Shown here piece by piece: positions 13,303 to 41,709 of a DNA stretch of 41,709 bases. The DNA is from Spinellus fusiger (Eukaryota; Mucoromycota; Mucoromycetes; Mucorales; Phycomycetaceae). The stretch spans positions 1 through 41,709 of the forward strand of contig JALLLS010000147.1 of NCBI GenBank assembly GCA_025094145.1, written 5' to 3'. Every line of letters starts with the position of its first letter. Position 1 is the stretch's first letter. The notes beneath the pieces were generated by a model. That model was not told where the DNA came from. It ran no database searches and saw only the letters and a program-made list of their open reading frames with translations. Made by a program: the position numbers and the translations under genes.

Positions 13303-13373
13303 TGCGCTAACCGGGAATCGAACCCGGGCCCTTCGCGTGGCAGGCGAAGATTATACCACTTAACCATCAGCGC
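13303..13373 (-). tRNA. tRNA-Gly (GCC)
   Basis: On the minus strand, acceptor GCGCTGA pairs with TTAGCGC across a 71-nt cloverleaf. The anticodon loop CTGCCAC gives GCC, box A is TGGTTAAGTGG and box B is GGTTCGATTCC. Its 5' end meets the 5' end of LINE copy A. Nucleotide 14 is at 13360. A fragment of nucleotides 1-14 with the same upstream GAAAAGTG is fused to the LINE 3' end at 39263-39276. Confidence 0.95.
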
Positions 13374-13561
13374 ACTTTTCTTTCTGCTAAAGATCACTTT
13401 TTTTTAAAATTCGTAAGTTCAATTCAAAAATACAAAAACGTCCATCCGTCTCCAAAAAGCTGCATCCATCTGCATCCATCATCAATCCATCTTCCCCCAT
13501 CTCCTGACTATCTTCTACAAAAGTTTCAGACCTCCAGCTCTCAAACTTGACCAGATCCAAC

Positions 13562-14489
13562 ATGTTCTCTTCTTCAGCAGGACAACAACACCTTTTGGCT
13601 AATGTCACCACCACCACCACCAAAGCTCAACTTATCTCGGCAGTGACGTCACTCCAACAGAGCTTTGCTCAAATGGCTTCTGAGCACACCCATCAGAAGC
13701 AGAGACTTGAGGCCTTTGAGGCCATTATGGAAGAAAACAAGCAGCTGAGAGAGACTGTGGCAGCCCTTGAGGCAAAGCTTGCTGCCTTGACTAATAAGGC
13801 AACTCCTGTGATACAAGAGGTGACACAGGCAACAAAGAACCACCAACAGGCTGAGAAGACAGCCAAGGACTCCACATGGGCTACTGTAGCCAAAAAGACC
13901 CGCCCAGCACCTTCAACTAGGAGAGTGGAATCTGCTGCATGTGCCTTCATCATCCAAGAAGGTCCTAAAGGTTACACATGTGTACATTCCAAGAGGCAGA
14001 TGCATGAACCGCCCAGAGGCAAGACGCCTCCTGAGAACCCTTGGCCTGGAAACAGGTAGAATCCTGGATGTGTGTTTCCCTGCCCATTCTGTTCTTGGTC
14101 TTTTGGTCCATGTCCAGTATGTTGAGTCTCTTACTGCAGTCTTGAATAAGGCCAAGGTAGATATCTACAAGAACTTTGACCCTCTGGACCCCAAGCATCT
14201 GGCAGACCCAAAATATGCCACCTTCAATGTTGAGCAGATGTGCATTGAGGCAGCCAGACTCCAAGAGAACAGATGCATGCAGGCTATCCAGTACATGCGC
14301 CCCCACATTGCTTTTTCTGTTGCTGCTGCTTTTGTAGCCAATGGCTAGATCAGTGAAGAGCAGATGCCCCCCAAGCCAACCAACAAGGGATACATTGACA
14401 GAGATGACCCAGCAAATGCCTTCCAAGTGAGCAGAAGAAGCTCTGTTGCCATGTCTGAGTCCTCCAACAACAAACACCAATATGAATAG
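13562..14489 (+). pseudogene. LINE copy A ORF1, frameshifted
   Basis: It has the same architecture as the other ORF1 copies: an N-terminal polar region, a coiled coil (about residues 35-85), a WATVAKK basic segment and a conserved folded domain (ILDVCFPAHSVLGLLVHVQY). A two-base loss near 13977 (ACACTTATG to ACACATG) breaks the frame at the KGYTYVYIPRGR block. TAG at 14346-14348 replaces a Trp codon, as in LINE 1. The last codons overlap the ORF2 start in ATGAATAG (14482-14489). A functional product would need to come from another copy. Confidence 0.8.
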
Positions 14490-17400
14490 AGTCTCTATAG
14501 GCCTATGGAATGCCAATGGACTTCAACAGTCTATGGTATATGACATTATGACACACTCACACTCCTTTACTATGCTCTTTATCACAGAAACCTGGCTCCT
14601 CTCTCCCTCCCACCTCCCTACTTCCTGGACACAGTTCCACACCTATGGCAAGCCTGTTGAGAACAGCTACCATGGCTCACTTGGTATCTGTGCTCTTGTT
14701 TCTCCCTCCTGTCCCTACCATGTTACCCACATCCCTATGCCCTCCCCCTATGCCCTTGGTGTCCAAATTGGTTCACTGAGAATTATATGTCTCTACCTTC
14801 CCCCCTCCCTTTCCCTTGAAGACACTTTTGCAGTGCTCAACTCCATTTCTTTGACAGAGGACACAATCATCTGTGGGGATCTGAATGCAAGACTTGGTGC
14901 AGTTCTTGGGGACCATGACACAAATCCTAGAGGTACAGCCCTACTGGAATGGCTAGAAGAACGTCAGCTGTATGTCCAGAACAGCATGCATGCCTTTGGT
15001 CAAGCAACCTACCACTCTTTCCAACAAGAACAAGAGATGGGTAGCATTGTGGATCTGTTTGTGTCCAACTATCTCTTTGACAACACATTCATGATGGTGT
15101 ATGGTGATCTCTCTCTTGGTTCAGACCATAGGCTGCTCAGTATGACATTTGATCATGACATGTCTACAGCTCCTCTCACACCACCACCCATCAGAAGAAT
15201 GTGGAACCTCTCACGCCTTGTGGAGCCAGATGTTGCTGATCTATACAGAGACAAGTTTGATAGTCTCTCCTCTCAACTATGTCAACTAATTACATCTACA
15301 GTGAGCAATCCTCCTGGTGTCTGTCCTGACATTGATGGCCTGACAGATCAGCTCAGCAGCTGCATCTACTCTGCTTTGGACAGCTCTGTTGGAAGCAAGA
15401 CACATAGACCTGCACATTGGCAGAAGTTCTGGAGTGAGGCTCTGCAGGTGGCAGTTGAGAAGAGGGAGCACAGCTTCAAGAGCTGGAAAAGGGCAAGAGG
15501 CCTGGACAAGGTTTGTTGGTGGCAGAGGCACCTGGATGCACAGAGGGCCTTTAGGTGTGAGGTGCAAAGAGCCAAGAGAAGACACTGGCAGGAGTTTTGC
15601 AAGAGCATGGAGAGAGACTATGCAAAGGCTACATCCAAGGTGAAGCAGATTTGTAGAAGAAGACAGCCACAGCAGACATTCCAACACCCAGATGGGCCAG
15701 CAGCAGCAGCAGAAGTGATGAGCCAACACCTTGAGAGTGTTTATAGAGGCTCACTATTAACATCACTTAGACCACCAGTAACAGCACAGCAGCATCAGCA
15801 TTCCTTCCCAGCAGCCACAACACCATTCTCACAACCTGTTGTCAAGTTCTGTATGAAGCTGCTGCCAAATAGGAAAGCACCAGGAGTAGACCACCTGAGA
15901 GCAGAAATGCTAAAGCCACTCAGCACCACCATTGTCCCCATTCTTTCTGGTCTGTTCACCATGTGTTGGCAGTGGTCCTATGTTCCTCTCCCATGGCGTC
16001 AAGCACAGGTGTTCCCCATCTTCAAAAAGGGTGACCCAAGTGATCCAGCCAACTACAGGCCAATCTCATTGACTTCTGTTCTCAGAAAGCTGTTTGAGGT
16101 ATGTCTAGCACCAGACCTGCACAAGTACTCTCCCCCACTTGATGTTGCTCAGGGTGGATTCAGACCAAGACGAGGTGCACTGGACCAGGCTCTGTGTTTA
16201 CACAACCTGATGAAGAGATATTATCAGAGACACCACCATTATCCTGTGGTAGCCTACTTGGACATCAAGGCAGCCTATGATACTGTAGACAGGAACCTGA
16301 TCTGGGATGCCCTGCACAAGAGAAACACACCGCCACCACTGCTTGCTTTGCTTGTCCACTTGTTTGATGATGTCCATGTGTCAGTCATCCTGAACAACTA
16401 TGTGTCCTCTTTGTTCTCTCCAGTAACTGGTGTACTGCAAGGCTCAGTTCTCAGCCCCCACCTTTATTCAATCTACATTAACCCACTTGCATGTCTTTTC
16501 AGAAGTGTGGCAACAGCAACAACAACACATGTGCAGTCTAGCTCACCATCATCTTTGGCAGAGTATGAAGAATCACTAACAGACAACAGTAGCACCACTA
16601 TGGATAAGCCTACAGGAATCAACTCACTCTTCTTTGCTGATGATATTGCTGTCTTTGGTAAGGTTGGAGAGGTTCAGCACATGCTGCGTTTGGCAGAGCA
16701 CTACTCTGTTTCAGTTGGCTTTAGATGGAGTCCTTCCAAGTGTGCAGTGGTCCTTCCCCCTTCTGTTTCCCAGGCCAACCAGTTCAAGATATATGGAGAG
16801 GCCCTTCCAGCAGCCAATGAGTTTATTTACCTTGGCATGCCCTTTGTCTACAATGGAATCAACTCCTCTGGGATTATCTCACACAGAAAGCAAGCCACAA
16901 TGTTTGCCATGTCCACACTGCATGCTGTTGGTGCCTCACGTTCTGGTTTCTCTTTGCTCCTCAGCTCAAGACTATACAAGACCTTCATTAGGCCAAAGTT
17001 TGAGTATGGTCTGGCAATCACTGTTCTTTTGAAGAAAGATATCAAAGCTCTGGAGAAGATACAAGACAGGTGCCTAAGAATGATCATAGGTGGCCACCCT
17101 ACTAGCTCCACTCAGGTGTTGAAGCATATCTGTGACCTGCCCAGCATGAGTTTCTGCTCAGACTCTCTCAAGACAAGGTTCTGTCTATGTGCTGCCTCAC
17201 TTCCACCCCAATGTCTTTTGTCTCTGCTGTTGAACAGTCCAGGAGTGCCACCACTTGAACCACTCACCAAGAATCATCTCTTTGCCTCTCTTCCAGCAGT
17301 ATTGCCAGAATCATCTGCCCAACTCAAACAATACTTCCAGAAACAACACCAACAGCTCCTTGACCAGTATCTGCAAGTGACAGACAAGGTGCTCATCAAG

Positions 17401-17802
17401 GCATGCAGGCCAACACTTGGCATTGATCCAGTCCTCTTCTTGCCAGCAACCAGACATGACAGAAGCAGGCTTATACGTTGGAGAATGGGATGGCTTCCTG
17501 GTAAGCCACGTCCATGTCAGTGCAGTCCAGCAGAGCACACCTCCAGAAGACATCTTTCAGAGTGTCCAGCAATTCCAAGGGACCTATGGGATCAACTACC
17601 ACCAGCACCACAACACTTCCATCCATTGGATCACACCATCAACTGTCTTTCTAAGAAATCTTCTTCCTGTCCTTCTTTCTGGGTGCCTCTACATACAATT
17701 CTCTGGCATATAGACCAGCTTTGCAACCCTGACAGTGAGTTTAGTCCCCACTCAAGTCCAGGCATGCTTTGGCATGATCAGGTGCACCAGGTGCATGAAT
17801 GA
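14482..17802 (+). CDS. LINE ORF2: APE endonuclease-reverse transcriptase, intact
   Basis: An uninterrupted 1106-residue frame from the ATG at 14482, chosen because it overlaps the ORF1 stop and directly precedes NRVSIGLWNANGL, the start of the endonuclease fold. Residues about 1-230 are the APE-like nuclease (FITETW, CGDLNARLG, GSDHRLLS). Residues about 470-830 are the reverse transcriptase (NRKAPGVDHLRAEMLK, VFPIFKKGDPSDPANYRPIS, YLDIKAAYDTVDR, VLQGSVLSPHLYSIYIN, FFADDIAVFG with catalytic ADD). A C-terminal knuckle CQCSPAEHTSRRHLSEC (Cx1Cx4Hx4Hx3C) follows. There is no RNase H domain. The nuclease would nick the tRNA-gene target and the RT would prime on it. The overall look is Tad/Jockey/I-like; the clade is not assigned. 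Confidence 0.93.
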   Translation: MNRVSIGLWNANGLQQSMVYDIMTHSHSFTMLFITETWLLSPSHLPTSWTQFHTYGKPVENSYHGSLGICALVSPSCPYHVTHIPMPSPYALGVQIGSLRIICLYLPPSLSLEDTFAVLNSISLTEDTIICGDLNARLGAVLGDHDTNPRGTALLEWLEERQLYVQNSMHAFGQATYHSFQQEQEMGSIVDLFVSNYLFDNTFMMVYGDLSLGSDHRLLSMTFDHDMSTAPLTPPPIRRMWNLSRLVEPDVADLYRDKFDSLSSQLCQLITSTVSNPPGVCPDIDGLTDQLSSCIYSALDSSVGSKTHRPAHWQKFWSEALQVAVEKREHSFKSWKRARGLDKVCWWQRHLDAQRAFRCEVQRAKRRHWQEFCKSMERDYAKATSKVKQICRRRQPQQTFQHPDGPAAAAEVMSQHLESVYRGSLLTSLRPPVTAQQHQHSFPAATTPFSQPVVKFCMKLLPNRKAPGVDHLRAEMLKPLSTTIVPILSGLFTMCWQWSYVPLPWRQAQVFPIFKKGDPSDPANYRPISLTSVLRKLFEVCLAPDLHKYSPPLDVAQGGFRPRRGALDQALCLHNLMKRYYQRHHHYPVVAYLDIKAAYDTVDRNLIWDALHKRNTPPPLLALLVHLFDDVHVSVILNNYVSSLFSPVTGVLQGSVLSPHLYSIYINPLACLFRSVATATTTHVQSSSPSSLAEYEESLTDNSSTTMDKPTGINSLFFADDIAVFGKVGEVQHMLRLAEHYSVSVGFRWSPSKCAVVLPPSVSQANQFKIYGEALPAANEFIYLGMPFVYNGINSSGIISHRKQATMFAMSTLHAVGASRSGFSLLLSSRLYKTFIRPKFEYGLAITVLLKKDIKALEKIQDRCLRMIIGGHPTSSTQVLKHICDLPSMSFCSDSLKTRFCLCAASLPPQCLLSLLLNSPGVPPLEPLTKNHLFASLPAVLPESSAQLKQYFQKQHQQLLDQYLQVTDKVLIKACRPTLGIDPVLFLPATRHDRSRLIRWRMGWLPGKPRPCQCSPAEHTSRRHLSECPAIPRDLWDQLPPAPQHFHPLDHTINCLSKKSSSCPSFWVPLHTILWHIDQLCNPDSEFSPHSSPGMLWHDQVHQVHE

Positions 17803-18043
17803 ACAGCTTTTTGTTCTGCTTCCCTGGCCTCCTTCATCTCACTGTTACAATCTTTTAACACAGCTGCAGAGTGGAGAGCAGAGACAGCCTTAAAGTCCAG
17901 TAGTCTTAGTTTCTTTCTCTTGCCTGTCTTTTTTTGTTCTTTTATCCTATAGAACTTTTTTGTTTATTTTAATTAGTGTAAGGAGTACAGTAAGGCTTCA
18001 TTAAGCAAATGCATATATCTCCTTTAATAAACAATCTTTAACC

Positions 18044-18057
18044 TAGACCAATGCAGA
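18044..18057 (-). other. tRNA-Glu-like 5' fragment, nucleotides 1-14
   Basis: Read on the minus strand, TCTGCATTGGTCTA fits nucleotides 1-14 of a tRNA with box A start TGGTCTA, most like tRNA-Glu. It lies exactly between the CTTTAACC end of copy A and the 5' end of copy 2. With the sister copy at 22918-22931 (TCCACATTGGTCTA) it implies an ancestor TCCGCATTGG, each copy having lost the CpG differently. Confidence 0.7.
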
Positions 18058-18288
18058 ATGCTTCTCTTTCACTTTCCCATTACTTTTTTGAAAAACTCAG
18101 ATTTTTCAAAAAAAAAAAAAGTTTTTTCAAGTAAACAGTTTTGCATCAGAACAACAAGCATACATCCATTTGCATCCATTGTACATCCCTCAACATCCAT
18201 CCAAGACACACCTTTACACCAACTCTCAACTTCTTTGGACCAAAAACCACCATTCTATCCACTTTTTTCTATTTTTGACAACAAAAAC

Positions 18289-19239
18289 ATGGCCAAAACT
18301 GCCACTTTGACACTGGCAGACCAGCTGGCTGCTATCCAGGCTGCTATTTGCACCCTCAAACAAAAAACCAGCCAACATGACCAGATTTTGGCTAAGTTGT
18401 CAGAATTGACAGCTGAAAACAATTGTTTGCACCTGGAGATTGCCTCTCTCAAGGCCCAGCTCTCTTCCCAGTCTTCTTTGAATACTGTTACACCTCCCCA
18501 AACTGGTTGGACTCATATTCCAACCCAGCCACCACCTGTTTTGCCCTACAAAATAGCCAAAAAGACTAACATTGCTACTAATGTTCCTTCTTACTCCAAA
18601 GTAGCTGCCACTCCCAAGTCCCCTGCTGTTTGTCCCCCTGTTGTTGTCTATTGTGTTGCTGCTGCTGCTTATGGATTCCAGATCCCCACTGGTGCCCAGG
18701 GTTTCCAGTACATCTACATCCCCCTTTCCCACAAGATGCAGCATAAAGAGGTATGCAATTGTCTCTGTTGTCTTGTAGACACCTCCCATATCCTGGACAT
18801 CTTTTTTCCTGCCCATTCTGTTCTTGGTCTGCTTGTGCATGACCAGTTTGCCTTCAACATCTGTGAACTCCTGGAGAAGGTCCAGGTCAAGATCCTGGAT
18901 AACTTTGATCCCATGAGTCCTGAACACCTGGCAGACCCCAGGTTTGAGACATGTTCTGATAGTGAGCTGGCCAACCATGCCCACATGATCCACCTCCAAC
19001 ATTGCTGTCATGCCCTAGTGCACATGAAGTACACCCTGGTTTCCCCTGTCCTCCGCTCTTTTGTTTCCTTTGGCTGGATGCAGCCTGAAGACTATGAGGA
19101 GTTCCTCAAGCAGCAGCCTGCACATCCTCACCTCCATGATCATGACCACCCAGCCAATGGCTTCCAGAGAGATCTGGATGACTATGATATGGACCATGAA
19201 GCTCTGTCTGTCTCATCCTCAGAAAGTCCCTCTTTATAA
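18289..19239 (+). CDS. LINE copy 2 ORF1, open
   Basis: 316 residues from the ATG at 18289. The upstream in-frame stretch is 5' UTR and holds no conserved domain. It has an N-terminal coiled coil (about residues 10-60, LADQLAAIQAAICTLKQK), a Pro/Thr-rich linker, YSKVAATPK, then the conserved ORF1 domain (GFQYIYIPLSHK, ILDIFFPAHSVLGLLVHDQF, LADPRFE). The acidic Ser-rich tail ends at a TAA overlapping the former ORF2 start. It is the only uninterrupted ORF1 in the window, yet it belongs to the copy with a dead ORF2. Confidence 0.82.
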   Translation: MAKTATLTLADQLAAIQAAICTLKQKTSQHDQILAKLSELTAENNCLHLEIASLKAQLSSQSSLNTVTPPQTGWTHIPTQPPPVLPYKIAKKTNIATNVPSYSKVAATPKSPAVCPPVVVYCVAAAAYGFQIPTGAQGFQYIYIPLSHKMQHKEVCNCLCCLVDTSHILDIFFPAHSVLGLLVHDQFAFNICELLEKVQVKILDNFDPMSPEHLADPRFETCSDSELANHAHMIHLQHCCHALVHMKYTLVSPVLRSFVSFGWMQPEDYEEFLKQQPAHPHLHDHDHPANGFQRDLDDYDMDHEALSVSSSESPSL

Positions 19240-22200
19240 GTGATACAATCAATGTAAGTCTTTGGAATGCCAATGGTCTTAGGGCAACCACTGTGCATGA
19301 TGCTCTATCCCACTGTCCCCCCACTACTCTCCTTTTTATCACAGAAACATGGCTTCTCTCTCCTGCTTGTCTTCCCACTGACTGGGAGCAGTTCCATTTG
19401 TATGGCTCTCCTGTGGTCTCCTCCTACTGTGGCTCCATGGGTGTCTCTGCTCTGGTCTCTCCTTCCTTTTCTTACCTTGTCCACCAACTCCCTTCTTCAA
19501 ACAAGTATACCCTTTCATTGAAAGTGGGACCACTTTGTTTCCTATGCCTCTACCTCCCTCCCTCCCTCTCATGTTCTTATCTTATGTCCATTCTTTCCTC
19601 CCTCCCCATCTACCCCAATACCATCCTGTGTGGTGACTTCAATGCAAGACTGGGTGACATTACTGGTAATTCAGTGATGTCTCCCTGTGGCACTGCCATG
19701 GTCCCATGGTTTGAAGAATGGTCCCTGTCTGTGTTGAACTCTTCTCTTTCTTATGGCATTGCTACTTGGCATGGTTTCCAGCAGCAATGCACATGCTCAA
19801 GTATCCTTGACCTATTCTTATGCAACTTTGATATGTCTGCCCCTTCTATGCACATCAACAGTGATTTTTCCCTTGGGTCTGATCATCATCTTATGTCACT
19901 TTCTTTTTCTTATGATATGTCCTTGCCTTCTTGTTCATCTTCTTCCCCTTCTTCTTCAACCATCCACCCAAGGCGCCTCTGGAATCTAGCATGTTTGAAA
20001 GAACAGGATCCATGTGACCTCTATGCCAACACCTTTACCACTCTTTCCTCCCCCCTTTCCACTCATTTCCACTCCCTTGTCACCTCCCCTCCTTCATCAT
20101 GCCCACCCATTGACAATCTCAATGATCAGCTCAATGAGTGCATCTATGCATCCTTGGACACTGCTCTGGAAACAAAAAAGGTCTTGCCCCTCCCACTGGA
20201 AGAAGTACTGGAGACCTGCTCTCCAACAAGCTGCTGAAAACAGGGAACGTTGCTACAGGTGGTGGCAGTATGCAACAGGCATAGACAAGGTGCACTGGTG
20301 GACCCAACACAAGCAAGCATATGCCAGATTCAGGTCTGATGTCCAGGCAGCCAAATGCCAGTCATGGCAGAACTTTTTCAGGTCTCTGGAGACAAACTTT
20401 GCCAAGGCAACAGCCAAGGTGAAGCAGCTCAAGAAACGTCACCAGTCCTCACTCTCCTTTTCCCATGCTGATGGTCCATCCAAGACAGTAGAGGTAATGG
20501 CTTCTCATCTTGCACAGGTGTATAGTGGAGATATCCTTCCTTTGTCCTGTCCTTCCCCTCCTGGTCCCTATGCTCCCCTTATTCCCTTTCCCTCCCCTGA
20601 CTCTCCTTCAAGCACCTCTCCTACCTATGTATCCTCCCCCACCCCCTATGTCCCTCTGGTACCTTCAGCACTATGTTCTCTACTGCTATGATTAGCCAGT
20701 GTATCAAGCTATTACCCAACAGAAAATCACCTGGCTCTGATCACTTGAAGGCTGAGATGCTGAAGCCTATTATCCCCATTGTTTCCCTACTCCTTTCCCT
20801 TATGTTTTGATTATGCTGGCAATGGTCCTACACTCCTTCATTATGGCGCCATGCTGCAGTCTTCCCCATTTTCAAGAAGGGTGACTCAGCACTACCAAGC
20901 AACTACCATCCTATTTCCCTGACTTCTGTGGTCTGTAAGCTGTTGGAGTTCTGTCTGGCACCTTCACTCTCTCAGCTCTCTCCTGTTCCTGATCTGGCTC
21001 AGGGTAGGTTTTGTCCTTGTCATGGTCCCTTGGATCAAGCATTGTGTCTGCATAAGCTGATGAATGCTCATTTCATGTGTCACCATCATTATCCTGTTGT
21101 TGCTTTGCTGGACATCTCCTCTGCCTATGACAAGGTTGACCATAACATTGTCTGGCAAGCTTTGTCTGCTGCTGGTACTCCTCCCCCATTCCTGTCATTC
21201 ATTTCACATCTATTTGACATGGTAACTATTTCTGTGTTGATATCTAACCACTCCTCCTTCCCCTTTTCCCCTGTCACTGGTATACTTCAGGGTTCTGTTC
21301 TCAGTCCTCAGTTGTACACAGTGTACATCAACTCACTTCCGGGTGTTCTCTATTCATTTCCTGGTGCTGGTGATAACTCTCACTCTGTCCATTTTCTGGT
21401 GTCTCCTGGTACTTCCTCTGGTCCTGGTCCTGGTGCTTCTTTTGGTTCTGTGCCTGTGGTAGTGAATTCTCTGCTTTTTGCAGATGATGTAGCTATCTTT
21501 GGTACAAAGGAGTCAGTACAAGTCATGCTGGCTCTTGCTGAACAAACTCATATGCTCTAGGGTTCAGGTGAAACCCCTCCAAGTGTGTGGTCCTCAATCA
21601 TCCATCTCCATTGTCATCAACTGCTCGTGGTTATACTCTGTCTCTGTATGGTGCTCCTCTCCCTTAGGCTGATGAGGTGACTTATCTAGGTTTGCCTTTT
21701 GGTAAGAAAGGTTTGATTGCTTCATCTCTGGTGTCTTCTTGGTCTCCTGGTGTTGCCAAGGTCATGGGCATTCTCAGTCTGATTGGTGTCAGTTGTTCTG
21801 GCTTCTCTCTCCTCCTGTGCTCAAGAATCTACTCCACCTTTGTGCACCCCAAGTTTGAGTATGGCCTAGCCATCTCATTTCTGAAGGCTCAAGACCACAA
21901 AGCTCTGGAGCAGTTACAAGATTGGTGTCTTTGTCTGCTGGTTGGGGGTCACCCCACATCATCTACTACAGTGCTTAGGCACATTACTAACATTCCTTCA
22001 ATGAAGCATAGAGTGAATGTCTTGGCAACTTGCTTTGCTCTACATTTCCAGTCTCTTCCTTCATCCTGTCTCCTGGTTCTCCTGTCCTTGTCTGTCTCTG
22101 TCTTCCACATGTCCTCATTTATCACACAAAATCCTCTCTACCTTGCTCTTCCCAGTCCTGTTCCTGATAAGGACAGCAAGCTCAAGTCCTTCTTCCACTC

Positions 22201-22666
22201 CTTCTGCCAGTCCCTGTTTGACCAGTTCATTCATACTACCTCTCAGGTGCTTATCCAATGGTGCCATCCCTTGCTAGAGGTTGACCCAGTTCTCTTTCTC
22301 CCTGCCACAAGAGCAGAGAGAAGCTGTCTTGTTTGTTGGCATCTTGGCTGGCTGCCTGGTGTGCCAGTTGAGTGTTCTTGTGGCTGTGACCACACTTCCT
22401 GTTGCCATCTCTGTGAGTGTCCATGCATCCCAGAGTCCCTTTGGGATGATCTGCCTGTCTGTCCTGCTGGGGTTCACCCCATAGATGCCTGCCTGAACTT
22501 GTTGCCTGTGAGGCCCAAAAAACACTGTCCCCCTTGGTGGCCTTCCCTACTTACTCTTTTGTGGTATATAGAGACTCTCTCCTACCCAGACCATTTCTTT
22601 TCAGAAGCTTCTTCCCCTGGTTCTCTCTGGCTTGCCTCTGGTGTCCAGCCTGCTGTTCTTGATTGA
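19236..22666 (+). pseudogene. LINE copy 2 ORF2, several frameshifts and stops
   Basis: Homologous along its length to the intact ORF2: endonuclease (FITETWLLS, CGDFNARLG, GSDHHLMS), RT (LLPNRKSPGSDHLKAEMLK, ALLDISSAYDKVDHN, ILQGSVLSPQLYTVYIN, LLFADDVAIFG) and the C-terminal Cys/His knuckle near 22370-22420. The start ATG has become ATA at 19236. Frame changes occur near 20185, 20660 and 21560-21680, and there is a TGA near 20808. Decay is clearly greater than in copy A. Confidence 0.88.
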
Positions 22667-22917
22667 AGACTGGTGTTGTGTCTCCTAGTTGCTCTCCCCC
22701 ACTGCCACAACATTTTAGTGCATGCTGGTGGGTAGACTTCTGAGTCATATTGTTAGTTAGTAGATTTTGGTTTTTTATTTTCTTATCACATTTTCTTTTC
22801 ATCTTTGATTATCTGCTCATTAAGATGTTTTTACTATCCTTTACTCATATATTATCTGAAGAGATCACAATGCTTGACAAAGCTGTGGCATATCTCTAAT
22901 AAACAAAATCTTTAACC

Positions 22918-22931
22918 TAGACCAATGTGGA
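22918..22931 (-). other. tRNA-Glu-like 5' fragment, nucleotides 1-14 (target duplication)
   Basis: Minus-strand TCCACATTGGTCTA immediately follows the CTTTAACC end of LINE copy 2. It matches the fragment before that LINE at 12 of 14 positions, with both differences at one former CpG. Confidence 0.7.
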
Positions 22932-23309: not shown

Positions 23310-23323
23310 GCCTGGCTAGCTCA
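23310..23323 (+). other. tRNA-Lys 5' fragment, nucleotides 1-14 (target duplication)
   Basis: GCCTGGCTAGCTCA equals the first 14 bases of the intact tRNA-Lys at 23850 (GCCCGGCTAGCTCA) apart from one CpG to TpG change. It is followed at once by GGTTAAAG, the reverse complement of the LINE/SINE end CTTTAACC. Confidence 0.85.
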
Positions 23324-23846
23324 GGTTAAAGATTTTTTATTTTTAGGAGTATTTTTCACAAGCTAGAAATAGTATAGTAACTCTGACAGACATATTAGGG
23401 AAGAATATTTTACATATAAGGATAGGAACATAGAATGAAAGGAAAGGAATTGAAATACAGACAAATTACTAAGACTAAGACTTATTTGAAAGATAGGAAA
23501 GATTGCTTAATTAAGCCCATGAGGGCATCCTTCCACCTGCCAGCACCCCAAGACTAGACCAGCCAAACCAGGAACCACACCAGAAAGAAAATGGCATTAA
23601 ACCCTTTTTGGGCATATATGAATATAAGGACTGCAAGGCAGTGCCTGCATGGGAGGGAAAAGGACAGGATGCATGGTCAAAACTGCCAGCCAAGACTGCA
23701 AAACCAAAGGCAGTCACCCACCTTGCCAGAAAATTAGTAGGGGCTGGGATGCCTGTTTTAGAGCAGAAATTGTTCTTCCCTGGGATTTGAACCTGCAACC
23801 TCTTCAATGCAGCAGATCTTAATACCAACTAGGCCAAGATAAACAT
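23324..23846 (-). mobile_element. tRNA-derived SINE sharing the LINE 3' tail
   Basis: Reading leftward from tRNA-Lys, the head has a box A (TGGCCTAGTTGG) and a box B (GGTTCAAATCC) 34 bp apart, as in a tRNA-derived pol III promoter. The cloverleaf is degenerate and no anticodon stem forms, so it is not a working tRNA. A tRNA-unrelated body of about 400 bp follows, ending AATAAAAAATCTTTAACC, identical over 18 bases to the tail of the LINE at 39277. It is flanked by tRNA-Lys nucleotides 1-14 on both sides. There are no long open frames. The body is unknown to me. Confidence 0.72.
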
Positions 23847-23849
23847 CCC

Positions 23850-23925
23850 GCCCGGCTAGCTCAATCGGTAGAGCGTGAGACTCTTAATCTCAAGGTTGGG
23901 GGTTCGACCCCCCCCCCATTGGGCT
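23850..23925 (+). tRNA. tRNA-Lys (CUU), possibly damaged
   Basis: GCCCGGCTAGCTCAATCGG matches eukaryotic tRNA-Lys, and the anticodon loop CTCTTAA gives CTT. The T arm is GGGGG TTCGA followed by ten C before ATTGGGC, where about seven would fit. The acceptor-T junction is therefore about three bases too long, and one acceptor pair is C-A. This is either a homopolymer error or a drifting gene. Confidence 0.75.
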
Positions 23926-25652: not shown

Positions 25653-25724
25653 AGGACCCACCGTGATTTGAACACGGGACCTTAGGATCTGCAATCCCAC
25701 GCTCTACCGCTGAGCTATAAGTCC
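25653..25724 (-). tRNA. tRNA-Cys (GCA)
   Basis: On the minus strand, GGACTTA pairs with TGGGTCC. Box A is TAGCTCAGCGG, the anticodon loop TTGCAGA gives GCA and box B is GTTCAAATCAC. It is 72 nt with no intron. Its 5' end abuts LINE copy 3. Confidence 0.93.
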
Positions 25725-25914
25725 ATTTCTCTTTCTGCTAAGAGATAATTTTTCTTTTAAAAAAATTGTAAGTCTATCCAAATTTGAAAATCATCCATCC
25801 ATCATCAAAACGCTGCATCTATCAAAAAACACAATCCATCCACCAACATCACCCACCTCCCCACCTACTGTCCAAGTTTCAGGTCAACACCACTTGAATA
25901 GCAGTAGATACACC

Positions 25915-26874
25915 ATGTTTGCCAATTCTGCTGAACAACAGCTTAATGCTTCAACCCAGGCTGAGATCATTTCGGCCCTTCAATCTCTGAGCTCAGAAAT
26001 AGCTCAGTTAAAGCAGCAGCAACACCAGCAACATGAACAGAAGCAATAGCAGCAGCAAAGACTGGAGGCATTTGAAGCCATCATGGAAGAGAATATGAGG
26101 CTCAAGGCAACCATCACAGCCTTACAGGCTGAGATAAGTGCACTCAAGGCACCATCAACAGCAGCACCAGCAACTTTCACTTCTAAAGTGATACAGAGCA
26201 GAGAAATTGACACAGGCCATTCTCTGCCAACAGTAAAGAACTCTTCTTGGGCCACAGTGGCCAAGAAACACATCCCAGCACCCTCCAAATGCCCCCAGAC
26301 ATCAGCAAGACATGTTGCAGCTGCTTCACGTGCCTTCACCATCCAGGAAGGTGAAAAAGGATACACTTATGTGTATATTCCACGTAGCAGATGAATGAAC
26401 TGTCCAGAAGTGCATAAGCTTCTCAGAACCCTTGGCTTTGACACTGGATGTATCCTGGATGTCTCCTTCCCAGCAAGATCAGTCATTGGTCTTCTTGTTC
26501 ACCTACAGTATGTACCAGATGTAACAGCCCTCTTGGAGAAGGCTAGTGTTACTATCTACAAGGACTTTGACCCCAGAGACCCAAAACACTTGGCAGACCC
26601 CAAGTACAAGGACTTCTCAAAGGAAGACCTCTCACTGAAAGCTATGCATATCCACCAGAAAAGATGCCTGCAGGCCATTGAATATATGAGACCCCACACT
26701 GCACACTCTGTAGCCACCATCTTTGCTGAGATGGGTTGGATTAGTGAGTCCCAGATTCCTGAGAATCCCCACAAGAGAAAAGTGTATGAAGACAGGGATG
26801 ATCCAAAAACTGCATTCAAGTGTCCATATGAAGATATGAACATAGATGAACCCTCACAAGACATCACCTTATGA
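25915..26874 (+). pseudogene. LINE copy 3 ORF1 with two in-frame stops
   Basis: One frame of 319 codons from the ATG at 25915. It has a Gln-rich coiled coil (LKQQQHQQHEQKQ, LEAFEAIMEENMRLKATI), SSWATVAKK, KGYTYVYIPRS, ILDVSFPARSVIGLLVHLQY. Stops are TAG at 26047-26049 (a CAG in a CAG run) and TGA at 26392-26394 in the IPRGRCMN block. Unlike copies 1 and A it keeps the Trp of MGWISESQ and reads on to TGA, which overlaps the ORF2 ATG as ATGA. Confidence 0.82.
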
Positions 26875-29736
26875 ATAGAGTCTCATTAGGCTTATGGAAT
26901 GCCAATGGGCTCCACCACACTATGATCCATGATATTTTAAGACACTCACACTCATTTCATATGCTTTTCATTATAGAAACCTGGCTTCTCTCTCCTTCAT
27001 GCCTCCCAACCTCCTGGACCCAGTTCCACATGTATGGCCTACCAGTTGCTGTAAATTACTGTGGCTCTATGGGTATATGTGCCCTCATCTCTCCCTCCTA
27101 TCCTTTCCCTGTCACTCACCTACCTATGCCTTCTCCCTATGCCCTGAGTGTCCAAGTTGGATCACTCAAAATTGTATGTCTCTACCTTCCCCCCTCTCTA
27201 TCTCTTGAAGAAGCTTTTGGTATTCTGGACTCCATTCTTTTGACAGAAGACACCATTATCTGTGGCAACCTCAATGCAAGAATGGGTGTACTAGTAGGAG
27301 ATCATTCTACTAACACTCATGGTACTGCTCTGGGATCATGGCTAGAAGATCAAAATCTTCATCTCTATAACAGTATGCATGCATATGGTATGCCAACCTA
27401 CCTCACATATTGAAACAACCAACAGCACAGCAGTATCATTGACATGTTTATCTCCAATTGCCAGTTCACCAATGTCACCATGGATATACAGACAGAGCTG
27501 TCTCTCAGTTCTGATCATAAGCTTATCCACTTTGCTTTTGACTATGTCATGGCTGAATTCCCACCACTACCACCACCTCTGAGAAAGACATGGAACTTGT
27601 CTTGCTTGAAAGAGCCTGATATTGCAAGGCTGTATTTACAAAAGTTCAGATTATTCACACATGATCTGTCTTCTAGATTAACATCACTTGTAGCAGAGCC
27701 TCCACCATCATGCCCAGACCTTGACACTCTCAATGAACAGTTCAATAGCTGTGTTTACAGTGCCCTGGATGATTCTGTTTGCAGGAAATCAGCAAGGCCA
27801 TCCCACTGGAAGAAGTTCTGGAATAGTTCTCTGCAGTCAACAGTAGAGCTCAGGGACCACTACTATAAGAAATGGCATTGTTCTGATGGCCTTGACAAGT
27901 TGCTCTGGTGGCAGAAGCATGGTGATGCCCAAAAAGCATTCAGAAGTAAAGTGCAAAGAGCAAAACAACAGCAATGGCAGACCTTTTGTAGGAGTATGGA
28001 AAAGGACTTCACAAAAGCAACATCAAAAGTGAAGCAGATCAAAAGATGTTGCCAGCCCCAGCAAAGCTTTCAGCATGATGAGGGTGATAAAGCAGCAGCA
28101 GAGGCTATGAGCAGACATTTGGCAGAAGTGTACAGTGGATGCATCCTTCCATCAGTCAGACCACCACCACCACCACCACTCAATGATGTCCATTCATTCC
28201 CAGCACTTGACTCACCATTCTCTAGGGAGATTGTGACCATGATCATTGGACATCTACCCAACAGAAAAGCACCTGGAGCAGACCATCTCAAAGCAGAAAT
28301 GCTCAAGCCTCTTAGGCCAGTAATATCCCAGCTTCTTTCCCAGTTCTTTACCTTGTGTTGGCAATGGTCTACTGTGCCTTATCACTGGCATTATGCTCAG
28401 GTTTTTCCAATCTACAAAAAGGGTGACCCAGAAGATGCTGCCAATTACAGGCCTATATCACTCACTTCTGTTCTTAGAAAGCTTTTTGAGATGTGTCTCT
28501 CATCCTTGCTGCACAAACACTCACCACCACTGGATGTTGCTCAGGGTGGATTTAGACCAAGACGTGGAGCATTAGACCAGGCATTGTGCTTGCATGACCT
28601 GATCAAGGCTTACTACAAGAGGCACAAACACTATCCAGTGGTTGCCTATCTAGACATCAAGGCTGCCTATGATACAGTGGATTGTAGAGTCATCTGGCAT
28701 GCACTCAAGCAAAGAAACACACCACCACCACTTCTGGCCCTTCTAGTTCATCTCTTTGATGCTGTTTCTGTGACAGTGATACTGAAAAACTATGAATCAC
28801 GTCCATTTTTGCCAGTGACAGGTGTCCTTCAAGGATCAGTCCTGAGTTCTCATCTGTACTCAATCTACATCAACTCTCTGGCACCTTTGTTCAGAACAGT
28901 GGCAGAACGCCAAACAACAACATTTGTTCCTTCCTTTTCACCTTCTTCCTTGTTGGCTTATGATGCATCTATCATTGGCAGCATTAGTACCAGCACAGAA
29001 CAGCCCACAGCAATCAACTCTTTGTTCTTTGCAGACAACATTGCAATCTTTGGCAAGGCAGAATAAGTCAAGCACATGCTTCAATTAGCAGAGCACCACT
29101 CATTCTTGTTAGGCTTTAGGTGGAGTCCTTCCAAGTGTGCAGTCATACAACCAGCAAGGTCATCACAACAGCATACATACCAACTGTATGGTGAGCCTCT
29201 ACCCTTTGTCAATGAGTTTATCTACCTTGGTATCCCTTTTAGGTTCAATGGTATCCATGCTCCTTCCATAGTCACTCATAGAAAACAAGGCACCATGCTG
29301 GCCATGTCCACACTTCACTCTCTTGGTGCTTCTTGTTCTGGGTTCTCTCTGCTTCTAAGTTCAAGACTCTATAAGACCTTCATAAGGCCAAAGTTTGAAT
29401 ATGGCCTGGCCATTACTTCATTCATTAAGAAAGACATCAAAGCACTGGAGACAATACAGGATTGTTGCCTATGTATGATACTTGGTGGTCACCCCACAAG
29501 CTCAACACAAGTACTGAAGCACATCTGCCATCTCTCTAGCATGCAGTTTTGTTCAGATGTCCTGAGAACCAAGTTTTGTCTTTGATCCAGAGCACTGCCA
29601 TCTCAGTGTCTCTTGTCTCTTTTATCAAGGCACCATCCACAAGATTCTTCACTCTCAGTGCTATGCAATAATCCACTGTACATCTCACTACCACAAGAAC
29701 CTCTTGACACAGCAGCAAAACAAAGAGTGTACTTTG
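26871..29736 (+). pseudogene. LINE copy 3 ORF2 with in-frame stops, 3' truncated
   Basis: The same frame throughout, with no indel seen. It has APE endonuclease (ETWLLSPS, CGNLNARMG where Asp of the usual CGDLN is Asn, SSDHKLIHF), then RT (LPNRKAPGADHLKAEMLK, IYKKGDPEDAANYRPIS, YLDIKAAYDTVDC, GVLQGSVLSSHLYSIYIN, LFFADNIAIFG). The catalytic second Asp of FADD is also Asn. Stops: TGA 27411, TAA 29064, TGA 29583. The C-terminal knuckle is lost to LTR-D. Two catalytic Asp to Asn changes (GAC/GAT to AAC) fit C-to-T damage on the other strand. Confidence 0.87.
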
Positions 29737-30367
29737 TAAGATTGTTCAGACAGGTAGATTAATGAGACTGAACAAAGATCATTTTTATTGAGTAAAGAAA
29801 GGTTCACTATTTATACTTTTGGTGGGTGCTTATCCTTTGGTGGCTTCTACCTTATGGTAGTCATGATAGTCAACCTTATGGCTGCTTCACAATTATAACT
29901 AAATGGTTGGTGGGGACATTCTACCTTATGGTAGAATTCACTCTCTTTGACCTTATGGTCAGTGTCTATATTACTACCTTATAGTAGTATTAATAACTGC
30001 CACCTTATGGTTGGCTCATATGTTTTACTTAGTTGTAGTATTATTAGATTCAACCCTATGGTTGGTTTCTGGGATAAGCACTCCATTATTAAAACCATTA
30101 ATTATTATGAGTCTTTACTCAATTGAATCTGATAGGTCAATATTGTTCTGTTAGGATTATTAATGAAGATGGCTCTTGTTAAGTGTCCAATAGTACACTG
30201 AGCTTTAGAAGGTGGTTTGTAGTTACAACCAATCAGTGAGATGATACAGAGATGTACTATGGTACTTGTGTGTACTCAAGCTTTCATAGAGTATTCTGAA
30301 TGTCACAGTACACTACTTGTGTTGACCAATTCATGAAGAATCTTTGGATTGAAGTTGGAACACAACA
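29737..30367 (-). mobile_element. LTR-D of the ACCATAAGGT family
   Basis: 631 bp, from TAAGATTGTTCAGACAGG to GGAACACAACA. It shares with LTR-E and LTR-F the markers ACCTTATAGTAG, GAATCTGATAG and the loss of one palindrome unit present in LTR-A and LTR-B. It truncates LINE 3 and sits next to the Gypsy pol relic. No target duplication. Confidence 0.8.
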
Positions 30368-36644: not shown

Positions 36645-36647
36645 ATT

Positions 36648-37717: not shown

Positions 37718-37788
37718 CTTACTTAAAAAAACTTTTTTTTTTTTTTGAAAAACTCAGATTTTTCAAAAAAGTAGTGGGAAAGTGAAAG
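37718..37788 (-). mobile_element. LINE 5' end fragment (copy 2 subfamily)
   Basis: CTTTCACTTTCCCACTAC, the TTGAAAAA hairpin and the A13-G-T run match 18066-18136. The six bases at the centre of the hairpin (TCTGAG) are flipped relative to copy 2 (CTCAGA). Confidence 0.85.
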
Positions 37789-38176
37789 TGTCTGTGATAG
37801 ACACTGTGCTATCAAATAGAGTAATACTGTTGGCTGCACATGTCTTCTTTTTTTGGAACACACATTATCCTGTGTGGATACACACAGATAATATAATATA
37901 ATTAATAAGATAAATGCTAATACAATATATTGTCTTGGCTTAACATGTTCACTGTAAAGAGAACATAAAGACAGGACATGTATGTGCAATTGTACACTGT
38001 AGAATTTAGTATAAATAATCAAGTGAATTCAATGAATAAATATTATCTTCTATCTTTTTTTTATTCTTCTTCTTTGATCTATATGGGCTTCAGTCTAAAC
38101 CAAGAACCACTAGCTATTCCACTCTGTGCACATACCTCTGGGCTTAGAACTATTTTATTCAAATTAGGGAACAACA
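37789..38176 (+). mobile_element. Solo LTR of the gag-element family
   Basis: TGTCTGTGATAGACAC to GGGAACAACA, 388 bp, aligned end to end with the LTR at 7038-7426 (shared CAATTGTACACTGTAGAATT and GGGCTTCAGTC). It interrupts the LINE at its extreme 5' end, where a tRNA start would lie about 8-11 bp away by comparison with copy 2. No tRNA is visible beyond it now. Confidence 0.8.
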
Positions 38177-39262
38177 AAATTAATGTGTGTGGTATATAGG
38201 TTTGTGTGATAAATGGATAAGAAGGTAAAAATATGCTGTAAGTAAAGGATTATCAGCAATAATGGAGGTTTGTGGGGTTTGGATAAAAGGGGATAGTCTC
38301 TTCAACTGAATTGACTATTAGAATAAAATAAAGTAATTTACACTCACAAGTGAATGCAAAAGAGAAAGGTGTATAATAGGATACAAGTATGGATAAAAAC
38401 AGTGAACAAGTTCACAAAGAAAAACAGTGCAATCAAGACTATGCAGAGAATTGACTTGCACAAGAAACAGAAAAACAACAGATAATTCACAAATAACTTC
38501 AACAGAATGTAATACTTGTCTCAGAAAGATCCAATTGCAATGGAAGAATAAGAAGATAACAAAAAGAATAAAGAAAAATATTCAAAAGAAGTATCACAAT
38601 AGAATTTGACCATTTATTTCAGTTCTTTGTAGATAGGGTATTTATACTAAAGAACAACTAATAAAAATACAGAATGATTTCATAAGAAATTAACTTAACA
38701 AAAATAATTAAGACAATTGTATTGTTGCTACATCATAGATGAATAACAACTACAAATTTAATAAACTATACTAGCATTGTTACAAGAATATATCATAACA
38801 ATGATTCTTCAGAAGAAAAGAAAAAAGAAAGAAACTAAAATAGTGCTATTGAGATGAACTTGTAGTGACAAAGTTATCCACTGCAAAAGCAACTAAAATA
38901 GTATAAAGAAATACATCATAGAGAAAGGAAAACAAGTTTAGGTAGAAAACAGAATAACATAAGAAAAAGAGTAAAGAAAGGAAAAAGATTGTGGGACAAG
39001 AGCATTGATCTCTTTACCATGTACAGAAAATGTCAGAAACATATTGGCTTCCAAAAGAGAAAGAAAAGAGAAGACTGACACAAAAGGAAAGAAAGAGAAA
39101 CTGAGGGGCAAGGAAAACTTAGCAATTCTATCTTCATTGGACAGAGGAAGGCTGCGGCACACATTATAGTTCAAGACCAAACAAAAGAGAAGCATGGCCT
39201 GTTCCAGCTTCTTTGTGGCTGAGGCCAACAAGTGGCACACACACTGTGTCAAAATATGAAAA
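38177..39262. other. A-rich spacer, no gene seen
   Basis: Purine-rich and AT-rich sequence, with a few short chance frames. A TATTTATACTAAAG near 38640 could be part of an old LTR; nothing else supports that. Confidence 0.5.
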
Positions 39263-39276
39263 GTGCTGATGGTTAA
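39263..39276 (+). other. tRNA-Gly 5' fragment, nucleotides 1-14
   Basis: GTGCTGATGGTTAA matches tRNA-Gly nucleotides 1-14 (GCGCTGATGGTTAA) and is followed directly by GGTTAAAG, the LINE end. The bases before it (GAAAA) also fit the tRNA-Gly upstream flank if a CG or GC pair was lost (GAAAAGTGCTG versus GAAAAGTGCGCTG). Confidence 0.85.
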
Positions 39277-41709
39277 GGTTAAAGATTTTTTATTAAAGGA
39301 GATATATGCATTTGCTTAATGAAGCCTTACTGCACTCCTTGTACTAATTGAAATAAATAAAAAAGTTTTACAGGACAAAAGAAAAAAAAAGACAGGCAAG
39401 AGAAAGAAACTAAGACTACTGGACTTTAAGGCTGTCCCTGCTCTCCACTCTGCAGCTGTGTTAAAAGATTGTAACAGTGAGAGGGAGGAGGCCAGAGAAG
39501 CAGAACAAAAAGCTGTTCATTCATGCACCTGGTGCACCTGATCATGCCAAAGCATGCCTGGACTTGAGTGGGGACTAAACTCACTGTCAGGGTTGCAAAG
39601 CTGGTCTATATGCCAGAGAATTGTATGTAGAGGCACCCAGAAAGAAGGACAGGAAGAAGATTTCTTAGAAAGACAGTTGATGGTGTGATCCAATGGATGG
39701 CAGTGTTGTGGTGCTGGTGGCAGTTGATCCCATAGGTCCCTTGGAATTGCTGGACACTCTGCAAGATGTCTTCTGGAGGTGTGCTCTGCTGGACTGCACT
39801 GACATGGACATGGCTTACCAGGAAGCCATCCCATTCTCCAACGTATGAGCCTACTTCTGTCATGTCTGGTTGCTGGCAAGAAGAGGACTGGATCAATGCC
39901 AAGTGTTGGCCTGCATGCCTTGATGAGCACCTTGTCTGTCACTTGCAGGTACTGGTCAAGGAGCTGTTGGTGTTGTTGTTGGAAGTATTGCCTAAGCTGT
40001 GCAGATGATTCTGGCAATACTCCTGGAAGAGAGGCAAAGAGATGATTCTTGGTGAGTGGTTCAAGTAGTGGCACTCCTGGACTGTTCAACAGCAGAGACA
40101 AAAGACATTGGGGTGGAAGTGAGGCAGCACGTAGACAGAACCTTGTCTTGAGAGAGTCTGAGCGGAAACTCATGCTGGGCAGGTCACAGATATGCTTCAA
40201 CACCTGAGTGGAGCTAGTGGGGTGGCCACCTATGATCATTCTTAGGCACCTGTCTTGTATCTTCTCCAGAGCTTTGATATCTTTCTTCAAAAGAACAGTG
40301 ATTGCCAGACCATACTCAAACTTTGGCCTAATGAAGGTCTTGTATAGTCTTGAGCTGAGGAGCAAAGAGAAACCAGAATGTGAGGCACCAACAGCATGCA
40401 GTGTGGACATGGCAAACATTGTGCCTTGCTTTCTGTGTAAGATAATCCCAGAGGAGTTGATTCCATTGTAGACAAAGGGCATGCCAAGGTAAATAAACTC
40501 ATTGGCTGCTGGAAGGGCCTCTCCATATATATTGAACTGGTTGGCCTGGGAAACAGAAGGGGGAAGGACCACTGCACACTTGGAAGGACTCCATCTAAAG
40601 CCAACTGAAACAGAGTAGTGCTCTGCCAAATGCAGCATGTGCTGAACCTCTCCAACCTTACCAAAGACAGCAATATCATCAGCAAAGAAGAGTGAGTTGA
40701 TTCCTGTAGGCTTATCCATAGTGGTGCTACTGTTGTCTGTTAGTGATTCTTCATACTCTGCCAAAGATGATGGTGAGCTAGACTGCACATGTGTTGTTGT
40801 TGTTGCTGTTGCCACACTTCTGAAAAGACATGCAAGTGGGTTAATGTAGATTGAATAAAGGTGGGGGCTGAGAACTGAGCCTTGCAGTACACCAGTTACT
40901 GGAGAGAACAAAGAGGACACATAGTTGTTCAGGATGACTGACACATGGACATCATCAAACAAGTGGACAAGCAAAGCAAGCAGTGGTGGCGGTGTGTTTC
41001 TCTTGTGCAGGGCATCCCAGATCAGGTTCCTGTCTACAGTATCATAGGCTGCCTTGATGTCCAAGTAGGCTACCACAGGATAGTGGTGGTGTCTCTGATA
41101 ATATCTCTTCATCAGGTTGTGTAAACACAGAGCCTGGTCCAGTGCACCTCGTCTTGGTCTGAATCCACCCTGAGCAACATCAAGTGGGGGAGAGTACTTG
41201 TGCAGGTCTGGTGCTAGACATACCTCAAACAGCTTTCTGAGAACAGAAGTCAATGAGATTGGCCTGTAGTTGGCTGGATCACTTGGGTCACCCTTTTTGA
41301 AGATGGGGAACACCTGTGCTTGACGCCATGGGAGAGGAACATAGGACCACTGCCAACACATGGTGAACAGACCAGAAAGAATGGGGACAATGGTGGTGCT
41401 GAGTGGCTTTAGCATTTCTGCTCTCAGGTGGTCTACTCCTGGTGCTTTCCTATTTGGCAGCAGCTTCATACAGAACTTGACAACAGGTTGTGAGAATGGT
41501 GTTGTGGCTGCTGGGAAGGAATGCTGATGCTGCTGTGCTGTTACTGGTGGTCTAAGTGATGTTAATAGTGAGCCTCTATAAACACTCTCAAGGTGTTGGC
41601 TCATCACTTCTGCTGCTGCTGCTGGCCCATCTGGGTGTTGGAATGTCTGCTGTGGCTGTCTTCTTCTACAAATCTGCTTCACCTTGGATGTAGCCTTTGC
41701 ATAGTCTCT
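39277..41709 (-). mobile_element. LINE copy G, 3' part, continues beyond window
   Basis: Near-identical to copy A from the ORF2 middle to the AATAAAAAATCTTTAACC tail. The 3' UTR between 39516 and 39277 is conserved. The 5' end is outside the window. Confidence 0.92.
39517..41709 (-). CDS. LINE copy G ORF2, C-terminal 730 residues, open to window edge
   Basis: The frame is open from base 41709 to the TGA at 39517 with no interruption. It holds the reverse transcriptase (NRKAPGVDHLRAEMLK, YLDIKAAYDTVDR, QGSVLSPHLYSIYIN, FFADDIAVFG) and the C-terminal knuckle CQCSPAEHTSRRHLAEC. It differs from copy A by scattered substitutions, including one extra Thr in a Thr run. Together with copy A it indicates a recently active subfamily. 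The endonuclease half lies past the edge. Confidence 0.9.
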   Translation of the reverse strand, partial: RDYAKATSKVKQICRRRQPQQTFQHPDGPAAAAEVMSQHLESVYRGSLLTSLRPPVTAQQHQHSFPAATTPFSQPVVKFCMKLLPNRKAPGVDHLRAEMLKPLSTTIVPILSGLFTMCWQWSYVPLPWRQAQVFPIFKKGDPSDPANYRPISLTSVLRKLFEVCLAPDLHKYSPPLDVAQGGFRPRRGALDQALCLHNLMKRYYQRHHHYPVVAYLDIKAAYDTVDRNLIWDALHKRNTPPPLLALLVHLFDDVHVSVILNNYVSSLFSPVTGVLQGSVLSPHLYSIYINPLACLFRSVATATTTTHVQSSSPSSLAEYEESLTDNSSTTMDKPTGINSLFFADDIAVFGKVGEVQHMLHLAEHYSVSVGFRWSPSKCAVVLPPSVSQANQFNIYGEALPAANEFIYLGMPFVYNGINSSGIILHRKQGTMFAMSTLHAVGASHSGFSLLLSSRLYKTFIRPKFEYGLAITVLLKKDIKALEKIQDRCLRMIIGGHPTSSTQVLKHICDLPSMSFRSDSLKTRFCLRAASLPPQCLLSLLLNSPGVPLLEPLTKNHLFASLPGVLPESSAQLRQYFQQQHQQLLDQYLQVTDKVLIKACRPTLGIDPVLFLPATRHDRSRLIRWRMGWLPGKPCPCQCSPAEHTSRRHLAECPAIPRDLWDQLPPAPQHCHPLDHTINCLSKKSSSCPSFWVPLHTILWHIDQLCNPDSEFSPHSSPGMLWHDQVHQVHE

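Follow-up and report, generated by a model that had tools for sequence, protein, structure and literature searches.

Elements and tRNA genes in the window

The window, contig JALLLS010000147.1 of Spinellus fusiger (assembly GCA_025094145.1; 41,709 nucleotides), is contig C54 of a 38.1-Mb assembly of 197 contigs, and other contigs are numbered here in the same manner. It contains several long interspersed nuclear elements (LINEs) and one short interspersed nuclear element (SINE), the ends of which adjoin tRNA genes or 14-base fragments of such genes. With a probability of roughly 0.88, the sequences indicate that related LINEs with an apurinic/apyrimidinic endonuclease (APE), together with the SINE, sit antisense in tRNA genes, mostly after A14, and that nucleotides (nt) 1-14 of the tRNA are duplicated so that the gene is rebuilt. 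A whole tRNA gene mostly remains at the 5' end of the element, and its 3' end is followed by a bare remnant of 14 bases. The element names F1 to F7 were coined in this analysis. The features concerned are as follows:

1..3761, (-) strand: F1 LINE copy, reaching the contig start; its 5' end at 3761 adjoins tRNA-Pro, with about 20 of the 5' bases absent
3762..3833, (+) strand: tRNA-Pro(AGG), whole
13303..13373, (-) strand: tRNA-Gly(GCC), whole, at the F1 5' end
13374..18043, (+) strand: F1 LINE, full-length, 4,670 bp
14446..17802, (+) strand: F1 ORF2, 1118 aa, with APE-type endonuclease and reverse transcriptase
18044..18057, (-) strand: tRNA-Glu nt 14-1 remnant, TAGACCAATGCAGA
18058..22917, (+) strand: F2 LINE, 4,860 bp, frames broken
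22918..22931, (-) strand: tRNA-Glu nt 14-1 remnant, TAGACCAATGTGGA
23310..23323, (+) strand: tRNA-Lys nt 1-14 remnant, reading TGAGCTAGCCAGGC in the SINE direction
23324..23849, (-) strand: F4 SINE, 526 bp, between tRNA-Lys and the Lys remnant
23850..23925, (+) strand: tRNA-Lys(CTT), adjoining the SINE; its 3' half contains a long C run
25653..25724, (-) strand: tRNA-Cys(GCA), whole
25725..29756, (+) strand: F5 LINE, 5' end against tRNA-Cys
39263..39276, (+) strand: tRNA-Gly nt 1-14 remnant, reading TTAACCATCAGCAC in the LINE direction
39277..41709, (-) strand: F1 LINE copy, 3' part including ORF2, reaching the contig end

The F1-type elements are APE-type LINEs, that is, retrotransposons without long terminal repeats (LTRs), as the domains, the shortened copies, and the target-site duplications are all present. 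F1 ORF2 matches PF14529 at residues 111-230 (45.5 bits) and PF00078 (85 bits), both above the cut-off, and R2 and LINE-1 ORF2 are among its nearest solved chains. It carries WNANGL, GDLNA, and SDHR, which we take to be APE-type endonuclease motifs, as well as FADD, presumably a reverse transcriptase motif. The N-terminal APE domain occurs in F1 ORF2 and in three relatives, one of which falls below the curated cut-off, and a domain search of F1 ORF2 for RNase H gave no match. Copies shortened at the 5' end lie on C12, C88, C30, C134, and C116. ORF1 (2797-3600 on the (-) strand and 13547-14059 on the (+) strand) gives only a sub-threshold match to CtIP_N, at residues 31-99, and is probably a coiled coil.

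The other families are related to F1 to different degrees (ORF2 identity 61% for F5, 43% for F2, and 41% for F3). The F3 LINE, at C79, is 4,952 bp long and F5 measures about 4.7 kb; for the F5 copy in the window, a 3' end was sought and not found. F7 is known from 3' ends alone, and F6 is an extra tail type with two occurrences, each upstream of an F5 copy (C61 and C58). In the F4 SINE, the last 66 bases are 78% like the F3 LINE tail (E 9e-9), and the head contains box-A-like and box-B-like motifs, judged by eye; ARAGORN finds no tRNA in the SINE. Relatives of the LINE ORF2 occur, among the 120 matches listed, in Rhizopus, Mucor, Phycomyces, Umbelopsis, and Lichtheimia, the best match having 54% identity, and a search for relatives in viral_contigs confirmed none.

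Junctions on the two sides of the elements

The LINE 3' ends at 18043, 22917, and 39277 all terminate in CTTTAACC and are followed by the two Glu remnants and the Gly remnant, respectively, with one mismatch each. An initial annotation of the window had described these three ends as joined antisense to tRNA nt 14-1, and both the coordinates and the flanks could be verified. It had counted them as all of the LINE 3' ends present; the three are real, but a fourth 3' end, that of the F4 SINE with its Lys flank, had been missed. The terminal CTTTAACC is weak proof by itself, because it occurs four times in the window against an expectation of 1.59 and 7 of 100 shuffles reach the same count; the real evidence lies in the flanks.

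The flanks of 71 3' ends from six element types (F1, 20; F2, 7; F3, 14; F4, 15; F5, 10; F7, 5) were tabulated from the window and the 38-Mb assembly. Eight weak or partial matches were excluded beforehand, as were 5 of 52 pattern matches that were not LINE ends, and an additional F1 end (C103, Glu, two mismatches) was printed with the table and left out of the offset control. The first 14 flanking bases equal nt 14-1 of a tRNA of the same genome, with at most two mismatches, in 55 of the 71, although the tRNA heads used were taken from fetched stretches, many of them adjoining the same elements, so that this set is not independent of the copies. With the same heads, shifting the frame from -40 to +40 (80 shifted frames; n = 66-71 at the offsets printed) yields matches only at -5 and +5, one each, and random 14-mers (200,000) match at a rate of 0.00024. 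The fixed antisense join proposed in the initial annotation thus holds genome-wide as a sharp peak at offset 0, and the breadth of targets that it foresaw is seen in the 15 tRNA heads involved, which cover 13 amino acids. The join is placed after A14 because the element ends in C even at Gln and Lys tRNAs, where nt 15 is A; a nick after nt 15 is ruled out by the same copies.

The remaining 16 ends comprise two at A9|G10 of a tRNA, four with a common unassigned tRNA-like head, two Glu-like flanks with deletions, two with five extra bases before a tRNA-like head, one unassigned flank, and five in non-tRNA DNA. The box A register is therefore the usual one and not a strict one: most joins lie at nt 14, two F1 copies are joined at TTTA^GC (the caret marks the cut), and five F3 and F5 copies lie outside tRNAs. 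The four ends with the common head (C1:190195, C36:56827, C36:61654, and C134:312724) share GCATCAATAGTTTA, one of them with an extra base. For the remnant TAAACTATTGATGC, an intact tRNA was sought in the assembly with two patterns, which matched only the junctions themselves. The extra bases at C36:63369 and C177:61925 (TAATC and AAACC) are tail-like, as if the reverse transcriptase had slipped at the start.

On the opposite side, the window 5' ends at 3761, 13374, and 25725 adjoin whole tRNA-Pro, tRNA-Gly, and tRNA-Cys genes head to head, as had been reported in the initial annotation. Among 30 F1 5' ends examined with ARAGORN, 22 adjoin a whole tRNA in this orientation, which bears out the intact 5' flanks that it had anticipated; three others adjoin the 3' end of another element and five are interrupted or unclear. 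The F1 5' end is mostly within 1 bp of the tRNA end given by ARAGORN, and 3 and 5 bp away in two copies. For F5, 29 of 44 matches were examined, with four 5' ends on tRNAs, 11 on another element end plus remnant, and 14 interrupted, mostly by LTR-like ends (judged by eye). For one interrupted copy and four non-tRNA copies, the 5' end was looked for at full-length distance and was absent, in the case of C134 and C116 because both copies are truncated. Of the tRNA candidates, 63 of 1446 were scored. All seven Leu, Met, and Arg tRNAs in the sampled sequence lack a recognized element 5' end, in a sample that is biased and in which truncated elements would escape detection.

The fixed orientation of the tRNA at 22 of 30 F1 5' ends could also be expected if the tRNA were a part of the element, i.e., a tRNA-headed LINE, rather than its target. 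This reading is scarcely credible, as copies of one family bear many different tRNAs with mostly unrelated flanks beyond them, the 3' side of 27 of 35 copies carries nt 14-1 of the same tRNA, and some 5' ends adjoin other elements instead. The many tRNA types, the matching 3' remnants, and the element-adjoining 5' ends refute the tRNA as an element component.

Among the 35 copies that are readable on both sides, the tRNA sequence of the two sides agrees in 27 (SINE, 12/14; F3, 3/3; F5, 3/3; F1, 9/15); two of the SINEs counted form an inverted duplicate, and the tRNA of C74 may be either Ile or Thr. Four of the 27 have an insert, apparently an LTR, between the tRNA and the element. In the 23 copies with a direct junction, the repeat is exactly 14 bp (0-2 mismatches) in 14 and 14-15 bp in four, and the match continues into a look-alike older element end in three (C125 and C17 of F1; C176 of F5); C135 has a 13-bp repeat plus an extra partial repeat, and C130 an 11-bp repeat followed by an irregularity. 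The shortened copies at C12 (F1) and C30 (F3) have repeats of exactly 14. The duplication had been predicted to span 14 bases and a few upstream ones, but it totals about 14 bp, and it takes in upstream bases only at the F1 cuts after A9. The tRNA loci of one isotype mostly differ in their flanks beyond the tRNA, and therefore many of the insertions are independent. At C110:491830-495441, two SINE copies with tRNA-Lys and identical flanks stand in a mirror arrangement, apparently an inverted duplication.

Several observations weigh against insertion with rebuilding of the gene. The two sides carry different tRNAs in 8 of 35 copies (6/15 F1 and 2/14 SINE), the F1 cases being the window copy on C54, C17:7459, C79, C49, C36, and C88. 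The window LINE at 13374-18043 is the only one in the window readable on both sides, and its flanks differ, one being Gly and the other Glu; no window LINE shows a matching duplication, and within the window only the SINE does. Regeneration of the full tRNA by the duplication, as initially proposed, holds genome-wide, although it is not apparent in the eight discordant copies, the window copy among them. Moreover, five of the 71 3' joins, all in F3 or F5 copies and all with flanks that begin TGA, lie outside tRNAs; the tRNA with the head GCATCAATAGTTTA, predicted from four remnants, was not found in the assembly beyond the junctions; and rebuilt tRNAs sometimes look damaged (the window Lys; Ala at C135).

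The discordant flanks could instead mean that the junctions themselves arose by recombination or assembly artifact in repeat clusters, to which the inverted duplicates at C17 and C110 and the swapped flanks of two SINEs on C59 would also point. These two SINEs (C59:25525-26938) are oppositely oriented, 99.7% identical over 385 bp, and flanked by Lys|Asn and Asn|Lys, apparently as left by an inversion through recombination between them. Nevertheless, exchange inside elements shuffles flanks and cannot make the nt 14 boundary or matched 14-bp repeats, and of the 14 copies of the short SINE 12 are concordant, so that this explanation is very improbable. The six discordant F1 copies are assumed to result from exchange between copies or from misassembly; the C17 F1 copies share 415 bp downstream, which an LTR could also account for. 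One of the C59 SINEs differs in its first 130 bases and is perhaps a second SINE subtype.

Cleavage motif and proposed mechanism

The sites of F1, F2, and F7 mostly read TA^R (AA^R in Gly), whereas those of F3, F4, and F5 are in CTCA^R tRNAs. F1 is also joined after A9, at TTTA^GC, in two copies in Asn and Thr tRNAs. In the Asn copy, at C59, the repeat of 14 bp consists of nine tRNA bases and five bases upstream of nt 1, and C130 is cut after A9 in the same way, with an irregularity. Because the repeat at C59 is still 14 bp after an A9 cut, the spacing appears to be a property of the enzyme and not set by the tRNA end. Outside tRNAs, two truncated copies also lie at CTCA^G, namely C134 (206 bp, 98.5% to F5), with a repeat of 14-17 bp, and C116 (217 bp, 94.5% to F5), with a repeat of 13 bp. 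The tRNA 5' end as a cue for the second cut is ruled out by C59 together with the non-tRNA copies (13-17 bp). Cleavage follows the DNA sequence, TA^R or CTCA^R, and not strictly the tRNA register. Since F1 and F5 are closest to each other yet differ in motif, while F2 shares the motif of F1 and F3 that of F5, the motif probably changed more than once as position and spacing were kept.

Such short motifs are common, and something further must therefore steer the cut to tRNA genes; an extended reading of box A and an RNA polymerase III (Pol III) factor are candidates. Tethering to the Pol III machinery (TFIIIB/TFIIIC), with the position set where box A holds the complex, has a precedent in the proposal made for TRE5-A of Dictyostelium, which requires the B box and whose ORF1 binds TFIIIB subunits (PMC5391098, PMC5911963, as far as the accessible text goes). 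It would supply what TA^R and CTCA^R alone cannot, namely the presence of most copies in tRNA genes. However, there is no positional spread here like the 23-181 bp upstream given for TRE5-A in those sources, and two non-tRNA copies as well as the A9 copies obey the cut motif with similar repeat lengths. Tethering as the explanation is thus possible but on the doubtful side, and it may be combined with sequence-specific cutting.

If the elements insert into tRNA genes as proposed, the endonuclease would nick the tRNA-sense strand between A14 and R15, and the 3'-OH of A14 would serve as primer for the reverse transcriptase, which would start at the end of the element RNA (...CUUUAACC, ...CUUUAAAC, or ...CUUUAAUC). 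The second cut would fall in the opposite strand, at a distance of 14 bases, facing the boundary of nucleotide 1. The F4 SINE likely borrows the LINE enzymes for these steps. Transcription of the rebuilt gene would continue, since a tRNA gene carries its promoter internally. The rebuilt site would therefore be reusable, which would explain arrays of the form tRNA-element-14mer-element-14mer, and an insertion is likely to be harmless and to leave the target open for the next one.

Such arrays are found at C79 (tRNA-Cys-F3-TGAGCTATAAGTCC-F5), at C176 (F3-TGAGCCAAGAAGGC-F5-TGAGCCAAGAAGGC), and at C30, where Thr remnants stand behind F3 and F5 next to tRNA-Thr. In the window, the order F1-Glu remnant-F2-Glu remnant fits two successive insertions into one tRNA-Glu. 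The remnants themselves decay in a particular manner. Compared with tRNA heads from this genome, 55 remnants contain 37 differences, of which 25 are CpG transitions, while CpG makes up 78 of 770 sites (P 7e-17). Of the concordant copies, 12 have a CpG difference, and every one of them keeps the intact CpG on its 5' side, consistent with selection acting on the rebuilt gene; at C38 and C59 this 5' side is itself a remnant. The window tRNA-Lys at 23850-23925, with its long C run, scores 49.5 bits in Rfam with only model positions 8-63 covered, and may be a pseudogene. The 14-base remnants seem to be under no selection; they preserve the order of insertions and display CpG decay. Within five LINE and SINE elements (window 13374-22917, L167), CpG observed/expected is 0.03-0.11 and TpG/CpA is raised, which suggests CpG methylation with deamination, or a process like repeat-induced point mutation, in this genome.

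Comparison with known tRNA-associated elements

LINEs specific for tRNA genes are already in print. The NeSL-type elements NeSL-1_TV (tRNA-Pro), LIN15_SM (tRNA-Arg), and LIN25_SM (tRNA-Glu) share this specificity (PMC4640811), but in the text available they are kin to the restriction-like endonuclease clade and use one tRNA type each, whereas the Spinellus LINEs are of the APE type and use 15 tRNA heads. It is possible, however, that they share the exact site. The initial annotation knew of no LINE with this exact target. For a cut at A14|15 with regeneration of the tRNA gene, no description was found in the portions of the open-license literature searched, which is no proof of absence; as far as those texts go, what is new is the APE-type variant that gives the target back.

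Other elements resemble the Spinellus LINEs in single respects, according to the parts of the sources at hand. In Dictyostelium, the APE LINEs TRE5 and TRE3 are likewise linked to tRNAs, and TRE5 is also antisense, but they lie outside the gene, TRE5 40-54 bp upstream (TRE5-A about 47 bp) and TRE3 40-150 bp downstream (PMC5391098, PMC5911963), whereas the Spinellus LINEs are inside it. Dewa, a zebrafish LINE linked to a tRNA gene, is in the tRNA-Leu spacer (PMC3706591). Several lineages of Dada DNA transposons target almost the same spot, nt 8-13 in box A (PMC8869645, PMC3706591). However, Dada uses a DDE transposase and duplicates 6-7 bp inside the gene, leaving it disrupted according to those sources, while the Spinellus LINEs would rebuild it.

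A further likeness is in Dictyostelium purpureum NLTR-A, an APE-endonuclease LINE that ends 2-6 bp upstream of tRNA nt 1 (PMC5006619, PMC5911963). NLTR-A has RNase H, for which no match was found in F1 ORF2, and the accessible text describes it as outside the gene, with no mention there of a box A cut or of a duplication of nt 1-14. NLTR-A may represent the same mechanism, viewed from only one of its sides. We tentatively propose, at somewhat less than even odds, a self-renewing safe site, in which the spacing of the two cuts made by a guild of LINEs and a SINE (14 bp) has been fixed to the length from the box A cut to nt 1, with NLTR-A as a second, unrecognized case. If so, each insertion would restore the gene in full and provide a new target, and tRNA genes would gain long tails of stacked elements. 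This would answer how an element can land in an essential small gene without harm and without using the site up. The compact cut motif, the fixed spacing, and two close families (61% in ORF2) with different motifs make target choice by the endonuclease testable, and LINEs that rebuild their target would be of interest for safe gene insertion.

Ty3-type elements co-localize with tRNA genes in Rhizopus oryzae (PMC2699053), a member of a related host group; these are LTR elements, and no such statement for LINEs was found in the available text. In the window, a Ty3-type element whose Gag ORF is at 5699-7036 has its LTR-like end (...CACGGACA) at 7037-7437, and this end halts 10 bp before a tRNA-Arg. 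Similar LTR-like ends interrupt LINE 5' ends in many cases, only a few bases away from the tRNA. It is as if Ty3-type elements used the same tRNAs, near the start of transcription. The window also contains, at 9192-9737, a fragment of a Tc3-like transposase (PF01498) and a repeated element with several copies (also at 10253, 29845, and 36122).

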